DNA from: a virus | DNA: 35,122 nucleotides | IMG/VR virus record: IMGVR_UViG_3300042364_000225 | Coordinates: 1 to 35,122 of that record | Direction: 5' to 3' (one strand) | Notes under the pieces: model-generated | Seen by the model: the letters and a program-made list of their open reading frames with translations, nothing else | Told to the model about the DNA's origin: nothing | Databases searched by the model: none | Shown: piece after piece, positions 1 through 35,122 of the stretch | How positions within the stretch are numbered: the first letter of the stretch is position 1 | Layout: every line of letters starts with the position of its first letter | Made by a program: the position numbers and the translations under genes

Positions 1-127
1 TTGTGCGCGCACGATCACATCGGTCGTGTGATTGTGCAGGTTGTGGCTTGCGTTCCCGGCTGGCCGTGAGATGATCCCCGAGTCGTCGGTCCGCGCGCCC
101 CTGTGGCGCTGCGATGCCCGATGCACC
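1..127. repeat. Direct terminal repeat, left copy (circular assembly overlap)
   Basis: Bases 1-127 are identical to bases 34996-35122. A 127-base exact overlap at both ends is what a de Bruijn assembler with k=127 leaves on a closed circle, so it most likely marks a circular or circularly permuted genome and not a true virion terminal repeat. The stretch contains the inverted repeat ATCACA (14-19) / TGTGAT (27-32). Confidence 0.95.
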
Positions 128-394
128 AGAACATCCAGATAACTACCTGACGGCGTCCGCCGCTGCTGTCGCATGGCCGTCGATCGTGTCCCGAAGTCGC
201 AGATCGGCGCGACTTCGCTGCATGATCGCGTACGATGCCGACATGATCGCGCACGATGCCGACATGATCGGCGCAGATGGTCGCATTATCGCGCATTATC
301 GGCGCGAAAAAAAGGTACTCCCGACGCGTTTTTTTGGTTGTTTGGGCCAACGGAGTAGGCAGGAAACCCTACAGGCTTACTCGGGGGGGCGGTC
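128..394. promoter_or_regulatory. Repeat-rich leader before the large terminase
   Basis: No convincing gene lies here. There is a perfect 9-bp hairpin CGAAGTCGC/GCGACTTCG (192-200 and 209-217). A 21-bp direct repeat CATGATCGCGYACGATGCCGA occurs at 221-241 and 242-262 with a decayed third copy from 263. A 10-bp tandem repeat CGCATTATCG follows at 282-291 and 292-301. An A7 tract (307-313) and a T7 tract (330-336) come next, then a short hairpin GTAGG/CCTAC around 355-372. Its place beside the terminase suits a pac/cos site or the late promoter region, but nothing in the sequence proves either. Confidence 0.6.
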
Positions 395-2578
395 TTGAAG
401 TCGAAACGACCGCCGAAATCGACCCGCAAGCCGAATGCGGCGAAGCCGAAGCCGCCAGTTCTGGCACCTACCGCAGCGGCGGTGGACGCACCAACCACGC
501 CGGCCACCTCGACCGCCCCGCGCGGCTACGAACGGTTCCGCGAGGCGAAGGCGCAGGAGTTCCGCGCCATGTCCGCGCGCGGCCGCGACATCGGGTCGAT
601 CCCTCCGTGCGCGAACCCCGAGCGTCGGGCGGAGGCTGAGACGAGTTTGCAGCGCTGGTGCGGGGTCTACTTCGCGCAGACCTTCCCGCTGGCGTGGAGC
701 GAGCCGCACCTGCGCGCGCTCTCGCGCATCGACGAGGCCGTGACGGTGGGCGGCCTGTTCGCGTTCGCGATGCCGCGCGGCACGGGCAAGACCACGATGT
801 GCGAGGTGGGCGGGATGTACGCCGTGGCGACGGGGCGGCGCGACTTCATCGCGCTGATCGGCGCGACGGAGGAGCACGCGGAGCGGATGCTCTCGAACCT
901 GAAGGTGGAGTTCGCGACGAACGAGATGCTCGGCGAGGACTACCCCGAGATCTGCGTCCCGATCGAGCGGCTCGAGGGAATCGCGCAGCGCGCGAACGGG
1001 CAGCTGTGCTGCGGCAAGCCGACCCACATCAGGTGGGAGGCGAAGTCGATCGTCTTGCCGACCATCGCCGGGTCAAGGGCGTCGGGCGCGATCATCCGCT
1101 GCGCGGGCCTCACGGGTGCGATCCGCGGCATGAGCGCGAAGCGTGCGGACGGTCGGCGGGTGAGGCCGAACCTCGCGATCATCGACGATCCGCAGACCGA
1201 CGAGAGCGCGAACAGCCCGTCGCAGTGCAGGACTCGCGAGGGCTTGCTCGCGGGCGCGATCCTCGGCCTCGCTGGGCCGGGTCAGAAGATCGCGGCGGTG
1301 ATGCCGTGCACGGTGATCCGCGCGGGGGACATGGCCGACGCGATCCTCGACCGCGAGAAGCACCCCGAGTGGAGGGGCGAGCGGTCGAAGATGGTGGTGG
1401 AGTGGCCGACGGCGACGGCGCTGTGGGACGAGTACGCGGGTCTTCGGCGCCAGTCGTTCCGCGACGGCGGCCGCGGCGAGACGGCGACCGAGTTCTACCG
1501 CGCGAACCGCGCGGCGATGGACGCTGGCGGCTTGGTTTCGTGGGAGGCGCGGCACGATCCCGACGAGTTGTCGGCGCTTCAGCACGCCATGAACCTGCGG
1601 ATCGACCGCAAGGACGCGGCGTTCTTCGCGGAGTTCCAGAACGAGCCCATTCCGCTCGTGACGTCGAGCGTGGCGGAGCTCGAGCAGGACGAGGCAGCGG
1701 GCAAGGTCAGCGGCTACGCGCGCGGGCTTGTGCCTCGCGACGCGTCGGCGCTGACGATGTCGATCGACATCCAGCAGAACGTGCTGTTCTGGACGGTGGC
1801 CGCGTGGAGCGAGGACTTCACCGGGTGGGTGGTCGACTACGGCTGCTGGCCCGACCAGAAGATGAGGTACTTCACGCTCGGTGAGGTGAAGCGGACGCTG
1901 TCCGACACGGCGCCGAAGGCGGGCTTGGAGGGCTCGATCCACCACGGCCTCGAGCGTTTGCTCGAGGAGCGAGCCGACCGCGCGTGGAAGCAGGACGGCG
2001 GCGGGACGGTGCGTCTCGACCGCGTCCTGATCGACGCGAACTGGGGCAGATCGACGGATGTGGTGTACCAATTCTGCGCGCGTTCGCGGTGGAACGGCCT
2101 CGCGCTGCCGTCTCACGGCCGCTTCGTCGGCGCGTCGAGCGCTCCGTGGGGGAGCACGGCGAAGAAGAAGGGGGAGAAGGCGGGCGCGCACTGGCGGATG
2201 CCGCCGGCGACGGAGCGCCGAGCGGTGCGGCATGTGCTGTTCGACTCGAACTGGTGGAAGTCGTTCGTCCACGAGCGCTTCGGCGTGCCGCTCGGCGACC
2301 CGGGCAGCGTGGCGCTGTTCGACGGCGACCGCGAGTTGCATCGGATGTTCGCGGAGCACCTGACGGCGGAGCATCGGATCGCGGTGAGCGCGAAGGGTCG
2401 GACGGTCGACGAGTGGAAGCTGAGGCGTCCTGGCCTCGACAACCACTGGCTGGACTGCATGGTCGGCTGCGCGGTGGGCGCGAGCATGAGCGGGTGCTCG
2501 CTGCCGTCGATGCGCGAGGCGGTGGTGGAGCGGAAGCCGCGCGTGAAGCTGTCGGACATCAAGCGGGGGCCACGATGA
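395..2578 (+). CDS. Terminase large subunit, GpA-like
   Basis: This is the ATP-driven motor that cuts DNA and packages it into proheads. In the 727-residue product the Walker A motif PRGTGKTT is at residues 127-134 and a Walker B strand ending IIDD is at about 262-265. The C-terminal half has the spaced acidic residues of a nuclease domain (SIDIQQN, LIDANW, and DNHWLDC near the end). The start is a TTG preceded by a G-rich stretch; the next in-frame ATG is residue 59. The Ala/Pro/Lys-rich first 40 residues look disordered. No small subunit was recognised upstream. The stop overlaps the next gene as ATGA. Confidence 0.93.
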   Translation: MKSKRPPKSTRKPNAAKPKPPVLAPTAAAVDAPTTPATSTAPRGYERFREAKAQEFRAMSARGRDIGSIPPCANPERRAEAETSLQRWCGVYFAQTFPLAWSEPHLRALSRIDEAVTVGGLFAFAMPRGTGKTTMCEVGGMYAVATGRRDFIALIGATEEHAERMLSNLKVEFATNEMLGEDYPEICVPIERLEGIAQRANGQLCCGKPTHIRWEAKSIVLPTIAGSRASGAIIRCAGLTGAIRGMSAKRADGRRVRPNLAIIDDPQTDESANSPSQCRTREGLLAGAILGLAGPGQKIAAVMPCTVIRAGDMADAILDREKHPEWRGERSKMVVEWPTATALWDEYAGLRRQSFRDGGRGETATEFYRANRAAMDAGGLVSWEARHDPDELSALQHAMNLRIDRKDAAFFAEFQNEPIPLVTSSVAELEQDEAAGKVSGYARGLVPRDASALTMSIDIQQNVLFWTVAAWSEDFTGWVVDYGCWPDQKMRYFTLGEVKRTLSDTAPKAGLEGSIHHGLERLLEERADRAWKQDGGGTVRLDRVLIDANWGRSTDVVYQFCARSRWNGLALPSHGRFVGASSAPWGSTAKKKGEKAGAHWRMPPATERRAVRHVLFDSNWWKSFVHERFGVPLGDPGSVALFDGDRELHRMFAEHLTAEHRIAVSAKGRTVDEWKLRRPGLDNHWLDCMVGCAVGASMSGCSLPSMREAVVERKPRVKLSDIKRGPR

Positions 2579-2766
2579 CGCCGAAGAAGCCGAGCGCATC
2601 GACCGAGCCGAAGGCGGAGCCGAGCGGCCTGTGCTGCCGCGCGTGCGGCTCGCGCGAACTGCGGGTGATCTACACCCGCAACGCCCCGATGAAGCGGGTG
2701 ATGAGGCGCCGCGAGTGCCGCCGCTGTGGCGCGCGCTCGACCACCTACGAGCAGGAGGGCCGATGA
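2575..2766 (+). CDS. Small zinc-ribbon protein, NrdR-like fold
   Basis: A 63-residue protein with two CxxC knuckles (C21/C24 and C48/C51). The segment between and after them (RRRECRRCGARSTTYE) strongly resembles the N-terminal zinc ribbon of NrdR repressors, but the ATP-cone domain of NrdR is absent. It probably binds zinc and perhaps DNA. It is translationally coupled on both sides by 4-bp ATGA overlaps, with the terminase before and an unknown gene after. A packaging accessory role, possibly replacing a small terminase, is conceivable from position only. Confidence 0.75.
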   Translation: MTPKKPSASTEPKAEPSGLCCRACGSRELRVIYTRNAPMKRVMRRRECRRCGARSTTYEQEGR

Positions 2767-21698: not shown

Positions 21699-22394
21699 CT
21701 ACCTGTGCCGCCCGTTGAGCGGCGTGTATCGGCCGACCACGCGCACGATGCGCGAGATTCGGCCTGTGTCCTGATCGTCGCTCTCGACTCGCGGGCGATG
21801 GCGCCGCGCGTTGAGGGGGCGCAGCTCGACGCGTCCGTCGCCGAGGCGGTAGACGGCCTTGATGGTGTCTGATCGGTCGCGCATCTCGACGTAGCACGGG
21901 TCGCCGTCGCTCCACGACGCGCGCGGCGAGCAGACCACGATGTCGCCTTCGTCGAAGAGCGGCGACATGGAGTCGCCGACGACCTCGAGCGCGAACGCGT
22001 GCTCGTCGCCGACGGCCTGCGTGGTGATCGGGAGCGTCGAGCGCGGCGCGTCGATCTCTGCGCTGTGGTTGGCGCTGCCGGCGGCGACGGGCGCGAGCAT
22101 CGGCACGCCGCGCGGCGCGGTGCTCTCCTGCATGGAGCCAGAGACGCGCATCGAGAGCGGGCGTTTCTTGATGATGCGGCGTAGATCCGCGTCGAGCCTG
22201 TCGCGCGAGATGCCGAGCGCGAGCGCGATCTCGCCGAGCCGCTTCGCGGTGAACGGCAGTTCGCCCTGCACCAGTTTGGTCCCCGTGCTCTCGGATTTCT
22301 TGCCCATGCGGGCGGCGAGAGCCTTCTGCAAGACCCCCATCTCGTCGAGCAGGTCGCGCAGCGCCGCCCCGATTTCTTGATTGGTTGGCTCCAT
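21699..22394 (-). CDS. LexA/CI-type self-cleaving phage repressor
   Basis: A 231-residue prophage repressor. Residues about 5-65 form an XRE-like helix-turn-helix (LQKALAARMGKKSESTGTKLVQGELPFTAKRLGEIALALGI). Residues about 100-231 are an S24 peptidase domain with a cleavable Ala105-Gly106, nucleophile Ser142 (GDSMSP) and Lys179 (TIKAVY). The 37-residue Ser-Lys spacing equals that of LexA. It should repress the divergent early operon and be inactivated by RecA-stimulated self-cleavage after DNA damage. It is transcribed leftward from the intergenic region that holds its operators. Confidence 0.9.
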   Translation of the reverse strand: MEPTNQEIGAALRDLLDEMGVLQKALAARMGKKSESTGTKLVQGELPFTAKRLGEIALALGISRDRLDADLRRIIKKRPLSMRVSGSMQESTAPRGVPMLAPVAAGSANHSAEIDAPRSTLPITTQAVGDEHAFALEVVGDSMSPLFDEGDIVVCSPRASWSDGDPCYVEMRDRSDTIKAVYRLGDGRVELRPLNARRHRPRVESDDQDTGRISRIVRVVGRYTPLNGRHR

Positions 22395-22401
22395 GTATTG
22401 A

Positions 22402-22427
22402 CGGTAGCAGGGTTTACGGCGCTACCG
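22402..22427. promoter_or_regulatory. Candidate repressor operator (inverted repeat)
   Basis: A perfect 7-bp inverted repeat, CGGTAGC / GCTACCG, has a 12-base spacer and lies 8 bases upstream of the repressor start codon. It is well placed for autoregulation of the repressor. Confidence 0.5.
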
Positions 22428-22459
22428 CGAACTTTCCAGAAAAAAGGTGCAGAAGGGGG

Positions 22460-22488
22460 TTGACTCCTGCCGAAACTATCCGTAACTT
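22460..22488 (+). promoter_or_regulatory. Candidate rightward early promoter
   Basis: TTGACT (22460-22465), a 17-base spacer and TAACTT (22483-22488) form a sigma70-like promoter pointing into the early operon. The half-site CTATCCG fills the spacer immediately before the -10 box, so a bound repressor would block it. The -10 match is only moderate. Confidence 0.5.
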
Positions 22489-22528
22489 CCCCGAACTACC
22501 GCTGAATGCGGGCTTCAGAGACCATCCG

Positions 22529-22765
22529 ATGATTGATTCTCAGACCACCCCCCAAATGCTCACGGTCGCGGAGACCGCCGAGCGGCTCAAAATCTCAGCC
22601 GACCTTGTCCGTTCGCTGATCGCGAAGGGCTCGATCACCGCATCGCGCTACTCCGAGCGCGGCCACTACCGCGTCTCCAAGACGGCGCTCGCCGAGTTCA
22701 TCGCCGCGCGCGAGGCGGTCACCGCCGAGTCGTGCCGCTGCGCACGAAAGGGGTGCCGCCGATGA
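22529..22765 (+). CDS. HTH protein, excisionase/MerR-like (early regulator)
   Basis: A 78-residue protein with a winged-helix domain of the excisionase family (MLTVAETAERLKISADLVRSLIAKGSITASRYSERGHYRVSKTALAEFIAAREA, residues 10-63) and a short tail with three cysteines. As the first gene after the divergent operator it may act as a Cro-like regulator or excisionase. The ATG at 22529 is poorly supported by a ribosome site (CAGAGA), which could mean translation from a short leader. Its stop overlaps the next start (ATGA). Confidence 0.75.
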   Translation: MIDSQTTPQMLTVAETAERLKISADLVRSLIAKGSITASRYSERGHYRVSKTALAEFIAAREAVTAESCRCARKGCRR

Positions 22766-26134: not shown

Positions 26135-27121
26135 ATGACCACCAAGACCCCGACCGCAGGACGCCCCCGCAAGGTGATGCTCGATAGCATCGAGTACGAG
26201 CCTCAGAATCAGGCGCGCGTTCAACTGAACAACGACACCGTCGCCGAGTACGCCGACGCGATGGGGCGGAAGGAGAAGCTCCCGCCGATCGTGTGCTACC
26301 ACGACGGCTCGACCTACTGGCTCGCGGACGGCTTCCACCGCTACCACGCGGCACGGAAGCGCGGCGAGAAGTGGATCGACGCGCAGGTCATCAAGGGCTC
26401 GCGCGACGATGCCAGGTGGCACGCGGCGGGCGCGAACACCCAGCACGGGCTCAATCGCACGACCGCCGACAAGCAGAAGGCGGTGCGCCTCGCGCTTGAG
26501 CTGCGGCCGACGCTGAGCGACCGCAAGATTGCGGAGCACTGCGGGGTCGACCACAAGACCGTGGCTATCCAGCGCGCCAAGTCATCTGGGGAAATTCCCC
26601 AGATGGACTCGCCACGCACCGCCGTCCGCAACGGCGTCGAGTACCCGATCCGCACGGCGGGCATCAACGAAGGCCGCCGCGCCCAAGCCACGGAGAGCCC
26701 CGTGGAGCCGTCCGACCCGTGGGAGGACTCGGAGGGGGAGGACGAACCTGCGGCGGCTCCCGTGAAGGCGGCGGCGGCGGCGAAGCCCGCGCGCGTCGAC
26801 GGCAAGGGGCGCGTGATTCCCGAGAACATCGCCGAGGCGTTCCTCGACCAGCGCGCCGATGTGAACGAGTGGCTCGCCGACTTCCGCGCGATTTCGGAGC
26901 GACTCCTCGGGCAGCGGACGAAGAGCGGCTACGCGTCGCTCGCGTGGCCCGAGATCGAGGCGGCGCTCCTGCGGGTCGCGAACGCCGTCCGCGCCGAGGC
27001 GCTGCCGTACGCCGTGTGCCCGTACTGCTCGGGCGACGGGTGCGACGCTTGCAAGGGCAACGGATGGCTGCCGCGCGCCGGGTGGCAGTGCGTCGCGCCC
27101 GAACTGGCGGGGAAGGACTGA
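26135..27121 (+). CDS. ParB/Srx-like domain protein with C-terminal zinc ribbon
   Basis: A 328-residue protein. Residues about 14-100 are a ParB N-terminal-like domain with LADGFHRYHAARKRG (63-77), the nucleotide-binding or nuclease motif region of the family. A helix-turn-helix follows (LSDRKIAEHCGVDHKTVAIQRA, about 125-150), then an acidic linker. The C-terminal segment has a DnaJ-like CPYCSGDGCDACKGNGW knuckle (about 297-313). It could act in DNA binding, partition-like segregation or replication control. The tandem hairpins lie in its leader. Confidence 0.75.
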   Translation: MTTKTPTAGRPRKVMLDSIEYEPQNQARVQLNNDTVAEYADAMGRKEKLPPIVCYHDGSTYWLADGFHRYHAARKRGEKWIDAQVIKGSRDDARWHAAGANTQHGLNRTTADKQKAVRLALELRPTLSDRKIAEHCGVDHKTVAIQRAKSSGEIPQMDSPRTAVRNGVEYPIRTAGINEGRRAQATESPVEPSDPWEDSEGEDEPAAAPVKAAAAAKPARVDGKGRVIPENIAEAFLDQRADVNEWLADFRAISERLLGQRTKSGYASLAWPEIEAALLRVANAVRAEALPYAVCPYCSGDGCDACKGNGWLPRAGWQCVAPELAGKD

Positions 27122-27124
27122 CCG

Positions 27125-28864
27125 ATGCGCCTCCGCCCCTACCAAGCCGAGGCCATCGCGCGCATCGACGAGGCGTTCGCCTCGCACGACTCCGCGCTCG
27201 TCGTGCTCCCCACGGGTTGCGGGAAGACGATCGTGTTCGCGACCGCGATCGACAGGCTCGGCGGCCGCGGCCGCGCGCTCGTCATCGCGCACCGCGAGGA
27301 ACTGATCGCGCAGGCCGCGCAGAAGATCCACGCCGTCACGGGCGTCTCGCCGCAGATCGAGATGGCCGTGCACTGGGCCACGCCCGAGTGGCTCGACTGG
27401 GACCACGCGCCGACCCGCGTGATCGTGTCGAGCGTGCAGACCCTCTCGACGGGCCGCATGAAGCGGTTCGCGAGCGGCTTCGACCTCCTCGTCATCGACG
27501 AGGCGCACCATGCGCCGGCCGAGTCCTACCGCCGCATCATCGAGCACTTCCGCGCGATCAACCCCGAGATGCGGGTGCTCGGCGTGACCGCGACGCCCGA
27601 CCGCGCCGACGAGCTCGCGCTCGGCTCCGTGTTCGAGACGGTCGCCCACTCCTACGACATCGCGGACGCCGTCACCGACGGCTGGCTGACGCCGATCAGG
27701 CAGACGAGCGTGAATGTCGCGGGCCTCGACTACTCGTCGGTCCGCACCACGGCGGGCGACCTCAACGGCGCCGACCTGTCCAAGATCCTCAACGAGGAGA
27801 AGACCCTCCACCAGATCGCGCACCCGACGATCGAGGTCGCGCGCGGCCGACGCGCCATCGTGTTCTGCGCGAGCGTCGAACAGGCCACGCGGATCGGCGA
27901 GATCATCAACCGATGGAAGGGCGGCTCCGCTGCGATGGTCAGCGGCGAGACGCCGAAGCTCGAGCGTCAGGCGATCCTCTCGCGATTCGCCCGCGGCCAG
28001 ACGCAGTTCCTCTGCAACTGCGGCGTGCTCACCGAGGGATTCGACGACCCTGGCGTCGAGGTGGTCGTTCTCGCGAGGCCGACCAAGTCTCGCGCGCTCT
28101 TCGCGCAGATGGTCGGACGCGGAACCCGCCCGCTGCCGGGCATCGTGGACGGCCCCGAGACGGCCGCGGACCGCGTCGCGGCGATCGCGGCGAGCGCGAA
28201 GCCATGCTGCGAGGTCATCGACTTTGTCGGCAACACGGGCCGCCACCGCCTGATCTCGGTCTCCGACATCCTTGGCGGCAACGACCCCGAGCCCGTGCGC
28301 GACCTCGCGGCCGAGATCGCCCGCAAGGCGGGACGCGGCGCCGATGTCGAGTCCGCCCTCGCCGAGGCGCGCGCGCGCATCGAGGAGGAGCGCCGACGCG
28401 CCGAGGAGGAGGCCGAGCGCCGCGCCGCGGCGAAGAAGCTCCGCGACGAGCAGATCGCCCGCGAGGCCGCGCGCCGCGCGAACCTCCGCGCACGCGCCGA
28501 CTACCGCACCAGCACCGTCGATCCGTTCGAGGTGCTCGGCGTCAGGCGCGACCCCGCCGCGCTCGCCAAGTGGACGGGCTCGGGCCGCCCGATCAGCGAC
28601 AAGCAAGCGCAGATGCTCGCGCGCTCTGGCATCGACCCGCGCTCGCTCAACGGCGACGAGGCGCGGCGGCTCTGTCAGGAGATCATCGCCCGCTTCAAGA
28701 CGGGCAAGTGCACATTCAAGCAGGCCGCGATCCTGCGCAAGAACGGGCTCGACCCGAACATGAGCAAGGCCGACGCCACGAAGGCGCTCGACGCGATCTT
28801 CAAGAAGACCTACACCGCGCCGGCCGAGCCGCGCCAGTACCCCGTCTCCACGGAGGTGTTCTGA
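27125..28864 (+). CDS. SF2 DEAD/DEAH-box helicase
   Basis: A 579-residue helicase. Motif Q-like RPYQAEAI is at the start, Walker A PTGCGKT at 29-35, DEAH at 125-128, TATPDRAD (motif III region) at about 157, and motif VI-like QMVGRGTRP near residue 330. The C-terminal 170 residues are a long charged helix (EEERRRAEEEAERRAAAKKLRDEQI) and a basic domain. It likely unwinds DNA at the origin or during recombination. The stop overlaps the primase start (TGATG). Confidence 0.88.
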   Translation: MRLRPYQAEAIARIDEAFASHDSALVVLPTGCGKTIVFATAIDRLGGRGRALVIAHREELIAQAAQKIHAVTGVSPQIEMAVHWATPEWLDWDHAPTRVIVSSVQTLSTGRMKRFASGFDLLVIDEAHHAPAESYRRIIEHFRAINPEMRVLGVTATPDRADELALGSVFETVAHSYDIADAVTDGWLTPIRQTSVNVAGLDYSSVRTTAGDLNGADLSKILNEEKTLHQIAHPTIEVARGRRAIVFCASVEQATRIGEIINRWKGGSAAMVSGETPKLERQAILSRFARGQTQFLCNCGVLTEGFDDPGVEVVVLARPTKSRALFAQMVGRGTRPLPGIVDGPETAADRVAAIAASAKPCCEVIDFVGNTGRHRLISVSDILGGNDPEPVRDLAAEIARKAGRGADVESALAEARARIEEERRRAEEEAERRAAAKKLRDEQIAREAARRANLRARADYRTSTVDPFEVLGVRRDPAALAKWTGSGRPISDKQAQMLARSGIDPRSLNGDEARRLCQEIIARFKTGKCTFKQAAILRKNGLDPNMSKADATKALDAIFKKTYTAPAEPRQYPVSTEVF

Positions 28865-29910
28865 TGTCGTTCAACTGGGAACAGGCGGCCAAGCCCGCGC
28901 CCGACGCCGACGAGGTGCGATCGCTCGCGAGCATCGTCGAGGTGGTCGGCTCGCGCGTCGCGCTCCGACGCAAGGGCCGCGAGCTCGTCGCGCTCTGCCC
29001 GTTCCACGAGGACAGCACGCCGTCGATGGCGGTCATCACGCACAAGGGGCGCGGCTTCTACAAGTGCCACGCCTGCGGCGCTGGCGGCGACGCGATCAGG
29101 TTCGTGATGGACTTCGACGGCGTCGACTTCGCGGAGGCCGTCCGCCGCATCGCCGAGGGATTTGCGCTGCCGTCCGTGCCGATGAAGCGCCCGTCGAAGG
29201 CGCCGAAGATCGAGGAGCACCGCTACCGCGAGGACTGCGGCGAGGTCATCGACGCGTGGCGCATGCACACGACGCTCCAGCGCGTCGTGGACGCGGCCCA
29301 CACGCTCGGCGTCACCGAGTCCGCGCTCACGGCGTACGGCTTCGCGTGGTGCCCGGCGGGCGACGGCTCGTGGGCGTTCCCGATGCACGACGGCGAGGGC
29401 CGCGTGTGCGGCATCCGACTCCGCGAGCCCGTCGATGAAGGCGCGGCGAAGTGGGCGCTCAAGGGAAGCCGCGCGGGGCTGTTCCTGCCCGCAGGCGTGC
29501 GCCGAACCTCGCTCGACCGCGTGTTCGTGGTCGAGGGGCCGACCGACGCGGCCGCGCTCGAATGGGTCTACCGCGACTACCCCGTCGCCGTCATCGGCCG
29601 CGCGTCGTGCACGGGGCAGCACCAGCTCGTCGTGCAGGCGGTGCGGCTCCTCGCCGCGCGCGAGCCCGAGGTGGTCGTGATCGCCGACGCGGACGGTCCC
29701 GGCGTCGAGGGCGCGAACGCGCTCGCCGACGATCTCGTCGCGGAGTTCGCGCGCGTCAAGGTCGCCGTGCCGCAGCGCGGTCTCGGCGAGGGTCTCGGAT
29801 GCAAGGACATCCGCCAGTTCGTCAGGCAGAACGACGAGGAGACGGCGTTCCGACTCATCGAGTTGAAGGTGTCGGCGCGCATGTGGCATCGCAGGAGGAG
29901 CATCAAGTGA
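28864..29910 (+). CDS. DNA primase, CHC2 zinc finger plus TOPRIM
   Basis: A 348-residue primase. The zinc finger is Cys45, His48, Cys68 and Cys71 (CPFHED...FYKCHACGAGGDAI). A central helical part is followed by a TOPRIM domain with VFVVEGPTDAAAL and, later, VVIADADGPG carrying the acidic metal-binding residues. No helicase domain of the T7 gp4 type is fused to it; a separate SF2 helicase is encoded just upstream. It makes RNA primers on single-stranded DNA. Both ends overlap neighbouring genes. Confidence 0.88.
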   Translation: MSFNWEQAAKPAPDADEVRSLASIVEVVGSRVALRRKGRELVALCPFHEDSTPSMAVITHKGRGFYKCHACGAGGDAIRFVMDFDGVDFAEAVRRIAEGFALPSVPMKRPSKAPKIEEHRYREDCGEVIDAWRMHTTLQRVVDAAHTLGVTESALTAYGFAWCPAGDGSWAFPMHDGEGRVCGIRLREPVDEGAAKWALKGSRAGLFLPAGVRRTSLDRVFVVEGPTDAAALEWVYRDYPVAVIGRASCTGQHQLVVQAVRLLAAREPEVVVIADADGPGVEGANALADDLVAEFARVKVAVPQRGLGEGLGCKDIRQFVRQNDEETAFRLIELKVSARMWHRRRSIK

Positions 29911-30266
29911 GCAGCTGGATACCGATTTCATCAACGATCGCGAACCGAACGGAGGTGCGCGTACTCGCGCGAACCCTCGGCATCGCGGACGCGCACGCCG
30001 TGGGGCTGTGCGTGATCTTCTGGTCGTGGGTCGACGCCGAGAGCGCGGACGGGTCGCTCCCGCGCGTGGTCGCGGGCGACATCGACGCGGTGGTCAAGCA
30101 CCCGGGCTTCGCCGACGCGCTTGAGAGCGCGGGCTGGCTCCTGCTCGACGATGGCGGCGCGATCGTCCCGAAGTTCGACCGCTGGATGGGTCAGAGCGCG
30201 AAGCGCAGGGCACAGGATCAACGGCGCAAGCGCGCCGAACGCGAAAGGGGCAAGGCCAATGTCTGA
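29907..30266 (+). CDS. Replication-initiation-like winged-helix protein
   Basis: A 119-residue protein with a GTG start that overlaps the primase stop (GTGA) and has an excellent ribosome site (AGGAGGAGC). The sequence WIPISSTIANRTEVRVLARTLGIADAHAVGLCVIFWSWVDAESADGSLP...VVKHPGFADALESAGWLLLDDGGAIVPKFDRWM matches the N-terminal winged-helix domain of phage replisome organisers and helicase loaders. A very basic tail (KRRAQDQRRKRAERERGK) follows. It may mark the origin for the primase and helicase. Confidence 0.65.
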   Translation: MSSWIPISSTIANRTEVRVLARTLGIADAHAVGLCVIFWSWVDAESADGSLPRVVAGDIDAVVKHPGFADALESAGWLLLDDGGAIVPKFDRWMGQSAKRRAQDQRRKRAERERGKANV

Positions 30267-32931: not shown

Positions 32932-34110
32932 ATGGAGCCACCGAAACTAGAGCGGCGCGAGGACGGGTACTACCGCGTCCGATGGACAGACGGCGCAGGC
33001 AAGCGCCGCGAGCGGTCCTTCGGCGCCGACCGACGCGCCGCGCGGAACCGATACCTCGCGTGGGTCAACCAGTGGCGATCAGACCCGATGGTGCGTGACC
33101 CCGGCGACACGGGCCCGCTCACCGTCGCGCTCGCCGTCGAGCGCTACGAGGCGCACGCCGCGACCTACTACGCGGGCTCGCGCGAGGTGCTCAACATCCG
33201 CCACACGCTCCGCGCGCTCGTTGAGGTCGCGGGCGACACGCTCGCGAGCGAGATCGGGCCCGAGACGATCGACGCCTACCGCGAGCTTCAGGTCGCGCGC
33301 GACATCTCGTTGGGGGTCATCAACCAAAGGGTGCGCACGATCCGCCGCGCGTGGAAGTGGCTCGCGAGCAAGAGGCTCGTCTCGATCGAGTCGTGGCAGT
33401 GCCTCTGCGCGCTCGAGCCGCTGCGCCGCGGGCGATGCGCCGCCCGAGTCACTGAGCCCGTACGGCCCGTCGCCGACAGCGTCGTGGAGCGCACCTGCGA
33501 CGCGCTGCCGCCGTCGATCGCAGCGATGGTCAGGCTTCAGCGGATCACGGGCATGAGGCCCGGCGAGGTCTGCGCGATGGAGTGGCGCGAGATCGACCGC
33601 AGCGGCGAGGTGTGGGTCTACGAGCCCCGCCACCACAAGACGGCGCACCACGGCCACCGCCGCCGCGTCATGCTTGGCCCGCGCGCGCAGGCGATCCTCG
33701 CGCCGCTCGTCGGCCTCGCGATCGGTGGGCGCGTGTTCTCGCCGAACCTCGCGATGGAGGAGCGCGACGAGGCCGCGCGCACCGCCTACGAGCCGCCCGA
33801 GGGCGCGCACGACTACAGAACCTGGCGTTGCTATCAGTCGCGCCTCGCAGCACGCCCGAGGCGATCCGACCGCGGCGACGAGTGGACCACCGTCTCGTTC
33901 GCGCAGGCGATCCGCAGGGCCGCTCAGGCGGCGGGCGAGCCGCACTGGAGCCCGAACCAGTTGAGGCACTCGGCGGCGACCGAGGCGAGGCGCGGCGGCG
34001 GGCTCGATGTCGCGCAGCTCCTCCTCGGGCACCGTCACGCCGAGGTCACCGAGGTCTATGCGGAGACGGACCTCGCGCGGCTTCGCGAGTGGGTGCGCCG
34101 GCACGGCTGA
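32932..34110 (+). CDS. Tyrosine-family integrase
   Basis: A 392-residue site-specific recombinase. It has an N-terminal arm-binding part, a core-binding SAM-like domain (about 60-165) and a catalytic domain with Arg209 (TGMRPGE), a Lys in HHKTAHHGHRR, Arg345 (NQLRHSAAT), His367 (LGHRH) and nucleophile Tyr376. The residue normally His in box II (HxLRH) is Asn342 here. 'VYEPRHHKTAHHGHRRRVMLGPRAQAIL' and the box order match, from memory, planctomycete integrases. The attP site follows the gene. Confidence 0.92.
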   Translation: MEPPKLERREDGYYRVRWTDGAGKRRERSFGADRRAARNRYLAWVNQWRSDPMVRDPGDTGPLTVALAVERYEAHAATYYAGSREVLNIRHTLRALVEVAGDTLASEIGPETIDAYRELQVARDISLGVINQRVRTIRRAWKWLASKRLVSIESWQCLCALEPLRRGRCAARVTEPVRPVADSVVERTCDALPPSIAAMVRLQRITGMRPGEVCAMEWREIDRSGEVWVYEPRHHKTAHHGHRRRVMLGPRAQAILAPLVGLAIGGRVFSPNLAMEERDEAARTAYEPPEGAHDYRTWRCYQSRLAARPRRSDRGDEWTTVSFAQAIRRAAQAAGEPHWSPNQLRHSAATEARRGGGLDVAQLLLGHRHAEVTEVYAETDLARLREWVRRHG

Positions 34111-34153: not shown

Positions 34154-34177
34154 ATTGGGGCAAAACTGGGGGAAAAA
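34154..34177. repeat. Left copy of ATTGGGGCAAAA / TGGGGGAAAA motif pair
   Basis: ATTGGGGCAAAA is at 34154-34165 and TGGGGGAAAA at 34167-34176. The same two words occur in the opposite order at 34406-34426, on the other side of the att core. They may be further arm-type or bending-protein sites of attP. Confidence 0.4.
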
Positions 34178-34210
34178 CGAGAGCGGCGCGCATAAACCTG
34201 CGCGCCGCAA

Positions 34211-34254
34211 AGCGGGAGACGGGATTCGAACCCGCGACATTCAGCTTGGGAAGC
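34211..34254 (-). other. attP core: 3' half of a tRNA-Gly(CCC) gene
   Basis: On the minus strand this stretch reads as the tRNA from the end of the anticodon stem to the discriminator base. It contains loop TTCCCAA (anticodon CCC), stem GCTGA, T arm GCGGG-TTCGAAT-CCCGT, acceptor CTCCCGC and T73. Upstream of the loop only two bases still pair, so homology stops there. A tRNA 3' half beside the integrase is the usual attP arrangement: insertion would restore the host tRNA gene. The right and left limits are estimated from where tRNA pairing ends. Confidence 0.85.
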
Positions 34255-34525
34255 ATCTGAAGGCCAGAATCGGACCTTGCCCGACTCTGACCGACATTGA
34301 CGGACCTTCACCGCAAGTGACGCTCCGAGCGGGTGTTGCGACCGTTCCCGCGCAGAACGACGATGACGGACGCTGACCGAGATAACCCGACCTCGACGGA
34401 TCGTGTGGGGGAAAATTGGGGCAAAATCGTCCGCGGCGAACCTCGTCGGCCATCGACTCGATGCGCTGGGCGTCCAAAGACTCGCCGCCGACCCCGCAAG
34501 CGACACGCTCCAGAGGCGAGGCCGC
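34255..34525. other. Gene-free stretch between attP and the iteron arrays
   Basis: No credible gene is seen; open frames here lack ribosome sites and have no domain. Apart from the motif pair at 34406-34426, nothing structured was recognised. Confidence 0.5.
34406..34426. repeat. Right copy of TGGGGGAAAA / ATTGGGGCAAAA motif pair
   Basis: TGGGGGAAAA (34406-34415) runs straight into ATTGGGGCAAAA (34415-34426), the reverse order of the pair at 34154-34177. Confidence 0.4.
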
Positions 34526-34629
34526 GTCCGCATCCTGTCCGCATTTTGTCCGCTTCGATGCGGACATCTGTCCGCTTTTCGTCCGCATTCTGTCCGCTTT
34601 GATTCGGACAGATGTCCAACGATGTCCGC
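34526..34629. repeat. Iteron array A, GTCCGC with 11-bp period
   Basis: GTCCGC occurs at 34526, 34537, 34548, 34570, 34581 and 34592, and a GTCC at 34614, all separated by exactly 11 or 22 bases; another is at 34624. Inverted copies fill the skipped slots, giving a palindrome GCGGACA-TC-TGTCCGC (34560-34575) and a weaker one at 34606-34617. Repeats on one face of the helix imply cooperative protein binding, as at an origin, packaging site or centromere-like site. Confidence 0.75.
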
Positions 34630-34676
34630 ACGCCGACGCGTGCGAGAGGTGGCCGGCACGGCGTCGACGGTGCCGC

Positions 34677-34691
34677 GAAACTCCGAGTTTC
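34677..34691. promoter_or_regulatory. 15-bp palindrome GAAACTCCGAGTTTC
   Basis: Perfect 7-bp arms flank one central base. It is copy one of a motif GAAAYTCCGARTTTC that recurs at 34880 and 34896. It lies between iteron arrays A and B and looks like a dimeric protein binding site. Confidence 0.55.
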
Positions 34692-34729
34692 AGGCCGAAC
34701 CGCGTTCTGAGCGTTCTAGAGGGGTTCGT

Positions 34730-34791
34730 GTCCGCTTTTCGTCCGCATCGTGTCCGCTTTTCGTCCGCATTGATTCGGACATCTGTCCGAA
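34730..34791. repeat. Iteron array B, GTCCGC with 11-bp period
   Basis: GTCCGC occurs at 34730, 34741, 34752 and 34763, then GTCCGA at 34785, again in steps of 11 or 22. The array ends in the 18-bp palindrome TTCGGACATCTGTCCGAA (34774-34791). It is built like array A, about 100 bases away. Confidence 0.75.
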
Positions 34792-34810: not shown

Positions 34811-34837
34811 AGGACAGGAGAGGACAGGACAGGAGGG
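34811..34837. repeat. Polypurine tandem repeat AGGACAGGAN
   Basis: Two 10-bp units AGGACAGGAG and AGGACAGGAC, followed by AGGAGGGA, make an almost pure purine strand. It contains a 19-base mirror repeat (34811-34829), a kind of sequence that can form triplex DNA. Confidence 0.5.
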
Positions 34838-34879
34838 ATCATCCGAAGCAGGAATATTCCTAGTATTACTATAGTGGCG

Positions 34880-34910
34880 GAAATTCCGAATTTCGGAAAC
34901 TCCGAATTTC
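34880..34910. promoter_or_regulatory. Two tandem GAAAYTCCGARTTTC palindromes
   Basis: GAAATTCCGAATTTC (34880-34894) and GAAACTCCGAATTTC (34896-34910) are 16 bases apart and match the palindrome at 34677. The junction forms a further inverted repeat TTCCGAA-T-TTCGGAA (34884-34898). The region is AT-richer than the rest of the genome, and a small hairpin CTGCG/CGCAG follows at 34911-34925. Confidence 0.6.
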
Positions 34911-34940
34911 CTGCGTTGAGCGCAGCGATGCCAGGGGGTC

Positions 34941-34998
34941 GAGCTCCGCACATTGTGCGTCGAGCTCCGCACATTGGCATCGTGAGCTCCGCACATTG
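34941..34998. repeat. Three 15-bp direct repeats GAGCTCCGCACATTG
   Basis: Identical copies start at 34941, 34962 and 34984, spaced 21 and 22 bases (two helical turns). The last runs into the sequence present at both window ends. On the circular molecule they lie about 400 bases before the terminase gene. Confidence 0.75.
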
Positions 34999-35122
34999 TG
35001 CGCGCACGATCACATCGGTCGTGTGATTGTGCAGGTTGTGGCTTGCGTTCCCGGCTGGCCGTGAGATGATCCCCGAGTCGTCGGTCCGCGCGCCCCTGTG
35101 GCGCTGCGATGCCCGATGCACC
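34996..35122. repeat. Direct terminal repeat, right copy
   Basis: This stretch is identical to bases 1-127 and shows that the sequence closes into a circle. Confidence 0.95.

Follow-up and report, generated by a model that had tools for sequence, protein, structure and literature searches.

The window analysed here, a stretch of 35,122 nucleotides that makes up one viral record, begins and ends with the same DNA: bases 1-127 are repeated perfectly at 34996-35122. The length of this terminal repeat equals a standard assembler k-mer (metaSPAdes is in use with k=127; PMC8443750), so we take the window to be a circular genome of 34,995 bp and the repeat to be an artefact of assembler overlap. It belongs to a temperate phage whose hosts are probably Planctomycetota bacteria. 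On the circle, the integrase gene (32932-34110) is followed by attP, by a repeat region and by the terminase gene TerL (395-2578, plus strand), and the 1,279 bp between integrase and TerL hold no convincing gene. The 3' part of a tRNA-Gly(CCC) gene serves as the attP core (34208-34254, minus strand). In two related contigs (L139 and L141) the match to the phage stops at 34254 and each junction has a full tRNA-Gly(ccc), which identifies these contigs as prophage ends. Four sites that read TGGGG(C/G)AAAA (34156-34427, plus strand, starting at 34156, 34167, 34406 and 34417) are the only matches to that motif in the genome; the core has two of them on either side, and they are likely to be the arm-type sites of the integrase. 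In one further contig (L146 3660-4448) the repeat region beyond the arm sites is replaced by unrelated sequence with open reading frames.

After the arms come, in order, the TGTCCGC repeats, a segment of low-stability DNA with two 16-mers, the three 15-mers that are the subject of this work, and a hairpin; these are followed by a weak candidate promoter, a 21-bp array, A/T tracts and the start of TerL at 395. The TGTCCGC repeats (34526-34790, plus strand) form two blocks phased at 11 bp, with palindromes GGACATCTGTCCG, and their copy number shifts between strains in steps of 11 bp, which is one repeat. Nearest-neighbour energy puts the stability minimum of the whole genome in the segment 34837-34912, which ranks first at window sizes of 30, 50, 75 and 100; this candidate unwinding element ends 29 bp ahead of the first 15-mer. 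It contains two tandem 16-mers, CGGAAATTCCGAATTT and CGGAAACTCCGAATTT (34878-34909, plus strand), that are conserved in relatives.

The 15-mer GAGCTCCGCACATTG occurs in three perfect copies on the plus strand, at 34941-34955, 34962-34976 and 34984-34998, with start-to-start distances of 21 and 22 bp, exactly as the first-pass annotation had described them; the last 3 bases of the third copy lie inside the 127-bp terminal repeat. That annotation also placed the repeats upstream of the terminase, and this is true on the closed 34,995-bp circle only, where the two ends of the window coincide and about 449 bp separate the start of the first 15-mer from TerL. No further copy with three or fewer mismatches was found in the genome, the next best match having four. 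Among 100 simulated order-2 Markov genomes, none contained such a 9-mer array (at least three copies at a spacing of 14-45 bp) or any 15-mer in three copies. The real genome has no 9-mer arrays apart from the 15-mers and the TGTCCGC repeats. Other 15-mers are present three times, in coding repeats near 31.5-32.0 kb and in the TGTCCGC array, and what is unique to the 15-mers studied here is the run of three in a row at a spacing of 21-22 bp.

Four distinct strains could be compared. The window phage and L007 each have three copies of the 15-mer, while L009 and L011 have two; the ten copies show two substitutions in all. The spacers of 6-7 nt between them diverge, and the step nevertheless stays at 21-22 bp in every strain. 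Since the 15-mers are conserved in two or three copies while their spacers drift, they look like protein-binding sites. A pair of 15-mers was found solely in viral contigs of the window phage's clade: it was absent from all 392 genomes sampled in the phylum to which the L084 genome belongs, and no phage record matched the repeat region at the DNA level. A search of the window against Rfam gave no match. The last 15-mer copy runs into an inverted repeat at 35004-35033 (also window 9-38), whose arms, GCACGATCACAT and GTGTGATTGTGC, form a 12-bp hairpin. The hairpin is almost invariant in the four strains and has the half-site GCACAWT in common with the 15-mers, and the single-strand fold of the 111 nt around it has a z-score of -3.4. 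Six of the eight GCACAWT half-sites in the genome fall within 85 bp at the 15-mers and hairpin; this clustering, together with the meeting of copy 3 and the hairpin, makes the two look like a single element.

The other side of the region holds a probable packaging site. Four diverged contigs, all recovered in the search for relatives of TerL, begin at the base equivalent to window 358, which lies 37 bp ahead of TerL; three of them (L004/L129, L006/L132 and L010) come from three metagenomes and the fourth (L084) from a MAG deposited in GenBank under the title Candidatus Kuenenia. Base 358 does not coincide with a gene boundary, all contigs that span the site have an unaltered CGGAGTA just before it, and the assemblies are separate, so that the shared ends are explained neither by trimming at genes nor by differences between strains. 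A fifth contig (L005/L130) begins 14 nt earlier, and in the contigs of L007, L008, L009, L011 and the window the sequence continues across 358, as expected of circular or concatemeric DNA. A cos is very probably present in this region, and the coincident contig ends make window 358 the probable left virion end. No contig was found with a right virion end at 376/377; the contigs at the right end break off inside the repeat arrays or close to them, probably for reasons of assembly. Weak symmetry in the sequence suggests an overhang of 19-20 nt (358-376 or 358-377). An end shared by L028 and L055 was considered as a further signal and set aside as not significant, these being two distant contigs among about 30 ends.

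The first-pass annotation had noted other repeats up to base 301, and these correspond to a real array of 21-bp repeats, CATGATCGCGCACGATGCCGA, at about 221-303 (plus strand), which has one copy fewer in relatives. A- and T-tracts occupy window 305-336, upstream of cos, and in L007 and L009 the same place (L009 3885-3906) holds a terminator-like hairpin with a run of T. In lambda the sites used by terminase lie within a cos of about 200 bp (PMC4669245; PMC4856287). The 15-mers are 355-412 bp from the cut, their individual ends lying 355-398 bp away from it, and fall outside such a span, whereas the 21-bp array lies close by, 55-137 bp upstream of 358; by this difference in distance the array is the better-placed candidate for recognition by terminase. 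The suggestion that the repeats mark a pac or cos recognition region thus survives in one part: a cos is very probably here, and the 15-mers as its recognition site are disfavoured by their distance from the cut and by the candidate promoter, hairpin and 21-bp array that stand between.

TerL is of the GpA (lambda) type and does not have the Nu1-like domain that its relatives carry at the N-terminus. In 96 related loci there is an open reading frame of about 65 aa, a homologous domain at the TerL N-terminus, or both; in the relatives L013-L126 the Nu1-like frame of about 65 aa lies upstream of TerL and a second copy is fused to the TerL N-terminus. The structural model of this small protein (mean pLDDT 87) aligned best with 7lwr, the structure of a viral DNA packaging motor (Z 7.1, rmsd 1.3, 48 residues), a value of Z below 8 being insufficient as sole proof, and next best with an excisionase (Z 5.6). 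Foldseek gave only weak EF-hand matches for the model, the Nu1-type match coming from a second aligner, and one member of the set weakly matches a terminase-small-subunit family. On the strength of the 7lwr alignment and that weak family match the modelled protein is called Nu1-like here. A profile built from the 96 loci finds no TerS-like gene in the window, which bears out the earlier remark that no small terminase subunit could be recognised, and the close relatives of the window phage are all missing from the loci that carry the Nu1-like domain. An unexpected by-product of the analysis is that the window clade has lost the duplicated domain, both as a free gene and as the copy fused to TerL. 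The open reading frame at 114-398, open in four strains, was rejected as a TerS: its residues vary freely in two variable stretches and its middle block is near-invariant at all codon positions, and it was judged non-coding on those grounds. Two HTH_17 proteins (22526 and 32713) look excisionase-like, and one of them may act as TerS. Among the TerL relatives that are HTH-less, L026 and L076 have a different frame ahead of TerL, which is about 160 aa long in L076 and incomplete in L026 and may be another kind of TerS.

An NrdR-like zinc-ribbon protein of 63 aa (2575-2766, plus strand) had been put forward as an unusual packaging partner that might read the repeats. Of 116 related loci, 81 have its gene immediately after TerL, and 64 of those 81 also have a Nu1-like TerS domain. 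The zinc ribbon is therefore a standing companion of TerL, with or without TerS, and not a TerS substitute peculiar to the window phage, and the proposal of a special partner is not supported. A role as an Ogr-type late activator was likewise rejected, Pfam returning an NrdR ribbon and not listing Ogr_Delta. In L007 (5181-6668), and also in L008, an insertion of about 1.5 kb separates the end of TerL from the zinc-ribbon gene.

The 15-mers are most probably a further instance of an element of known kind. The reading that we place first, at somewhat less than an even chance, is that the 15-mers are the iterons of a phage replication origin. Helically phased direct repeats beside an A+T-rich region are the hallmark of an iteron origin (PMC5043065); in lambda, two iterons and the AT-rich tract are enough for unwinding, and lambdoid phages vary in iteron number, with four in some and six in others (PMC7466680). 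At the present locus we find several direct repeats, in helical phase, adjoining easily melted A+T-rich DNA, and the phage has its own primase, helicase and replication-initiation homologue. The initiation homologue (29907-30266, plus strand) matches phrog_2509 (E=1.7e-31) over the N-terminal part of the family profile only, and its tblastn matches are annotated as protein O, primosomal protein I or YdaU; it is the candidate reader of the 15-mers. The gene for this protein has no comparable array near it, the sole 9-mer arrays of the genome being those of the 15-mer and TGTCCGC region.

In such an origin, the 15-mers would be occupied by one DNA-binding protein, all on one face of the helix, and would form the iteron part together with the low-stability stretch at 34837-34912 and the hairpin at 35004-35033. 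The replication-initiation protein, as the presumed reader, would bind the phased 15-mers and bend the DNA; the AT-rich stretch would then open, unwinding being the expected consequence, and the products of the primase and helicase genes (27125-29910), or host factors, would load next. Once replicated, the DNA would pass to terminase for cutting at cos, a separate site at window 358 some 360 bp downstream of the 15-mers, with the 21-bp array as the likelier recognition site for packaging. Several observations temper this reading. AT-richness marks promoters too, and the repressor and early-promoter region (about 22371-22540) likewise ranks with the least stable stretches of the genome. Two strains hold just two copies of the 15-mer. 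The TGTCCGC array, phased at 11 bp and lying across the AT-rich stretch, has more copies than the 15-mers and could be the initiator site in their place. A search of the repeat region for the DnaA box TTWTNCACA with at most one mismatch found none, and there was no IHF consensus near the 15-mers. DnaA boxes are present in many iteron origins and absent from that of lambda, and so are not required.

It is possible, if unlikely, that the 15-mers and hairpin are instead upstream activating sites, through which a phage activator would serve a late promoter of the terminase operon. The element is directly upstream of the late operon, and its phased repeats precede a weak candidate promoter, read by eye, at about window 49-75 (TTGCGT-16-GATGAT, plus strand, with TG before the second hexamer), the hairpin ending about 10 bp ahead of the candidate -35. 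The equivalent promoter in L011 (TTGACC-17-CATGAT), with its TG-bearing -10, passes the scan, and the window has a weaker version in the same place; but in the window and in L009 the promoter falls below the scan threshold, its sequence is poorly kept, and the repeats separate it from the segment of lowest stability.

We consider it doubtful that the 15-mers make up a distal portion of an extended cos and are recognised by a non-canonical protein in a clade that has lost its Nu1-like TerS. What speaks for such a role, besides the cos mapped at 358, is the repeat spacing of about 21 bp common to the 15-mers and the 21-bp array, and the finding that no array was detected upstream of TerL in 70 relatives that do bear TerS (control stretches, 0 of 76), so that arrays and the loss of TerS go together; this association is that of one clade, and the detector required three exact 9-mers. 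The distance of the 15-mers from the cut tells against it, as does the nearer 21-bp array, which has little sequence in common with them, and so does the zinc ribbon, which accompanies TerL also in relatives that have the TerS-like domain. The wider proposition, that a GpA terminase without a Nu1-like TerS selects DNA by arrays upstream of cos (the 21-bp array and possibly the 15-mers) through a different reader protein, with packaging recognition and perhaps the start of replication in one control region, we also regard as speculative and unlikely.

It is distinctly improbable that the 15-mers are sites for some other phage regulator, or for the ParB-like protein encoded at 26135-27121, in repression or partition for example. 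The phage does encode an S24 repressor and the two HTH_17 proteins as well as the ParB-like protein, but there is no 15-mer within three mismatches at the repressor and early region or elsewhere, and a direct repeat is unlike typical operators or parS. The ParB-like protein has an HTH and is a further candidate reader of repeat arrays. Two other identities were tried and rejected: a CI operator, there being no 15-mer near the repressor gene, and integrase arm sites, since the arms are the TGGGG(C/G)AAAA motifs and the 15-mers are about 690 bp from the attP core. A functionless tandem duplication under no constraint would account for the difference in copy number among strains and is scarcely credible, given ten copies so nearly identical against spacers that diverge.

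These findings turn a cluster of repeats into a testable map of the control region of a Planctomycetota-type phage, with integrase arms, a tRNA-Gly core, a candidate origin, promoter and terminase array, and a mapped cos end. They also show that coincident contig ends in independent assemblies can stand in for virion DNA in locating a packaging end. Since one clade has lost a duplicated Nu1-like domain, DNA recognition by a lambda-type terminase without a canonical TerS becomes directly testable. The parts mapped here are ordinary phage parts; what is unusual is the loss by this lineage of its packaging-recognition protein.

Comparison with known systems places the region close to lambda in packaging and close to iteron origins in its repeats. 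The Nu1/gp1-type DNA-binding domain of TerS is carried by relatives of the window TerL, while the window phage and its close relatives are without both copies. As in the cosQ-cosN-cosB site of lambda, a TerL of the GpA family is accompanied by a lambda-family portal, a fixed end lies just upstream of the terminase gene, and a repeat array and A/T tracts are found near the cut. Unlike lambda, the window phage has its array on the opposite side of the cut (the right end) from cosB, has no recognised TerS gene and no IHF consensus, and has a proposed overhang of 19-20 nt. The overhang of lambda is 12 nt. With ori-lambda and the origins of plasmids P1, RK2 and pSC101 the 15-mer region shares repeats phased at about two helical turns, adjoining A+T-rich DNA, a copy number that varies among relatives and a genome that encodes an initiator homologue. 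It differs from them in having two or three copies of its repeat, situated between attP and cos; and whereas the lambda origin lies inside its initiator gene, the 15-mers of the window phage are about 5 kb from theirs.
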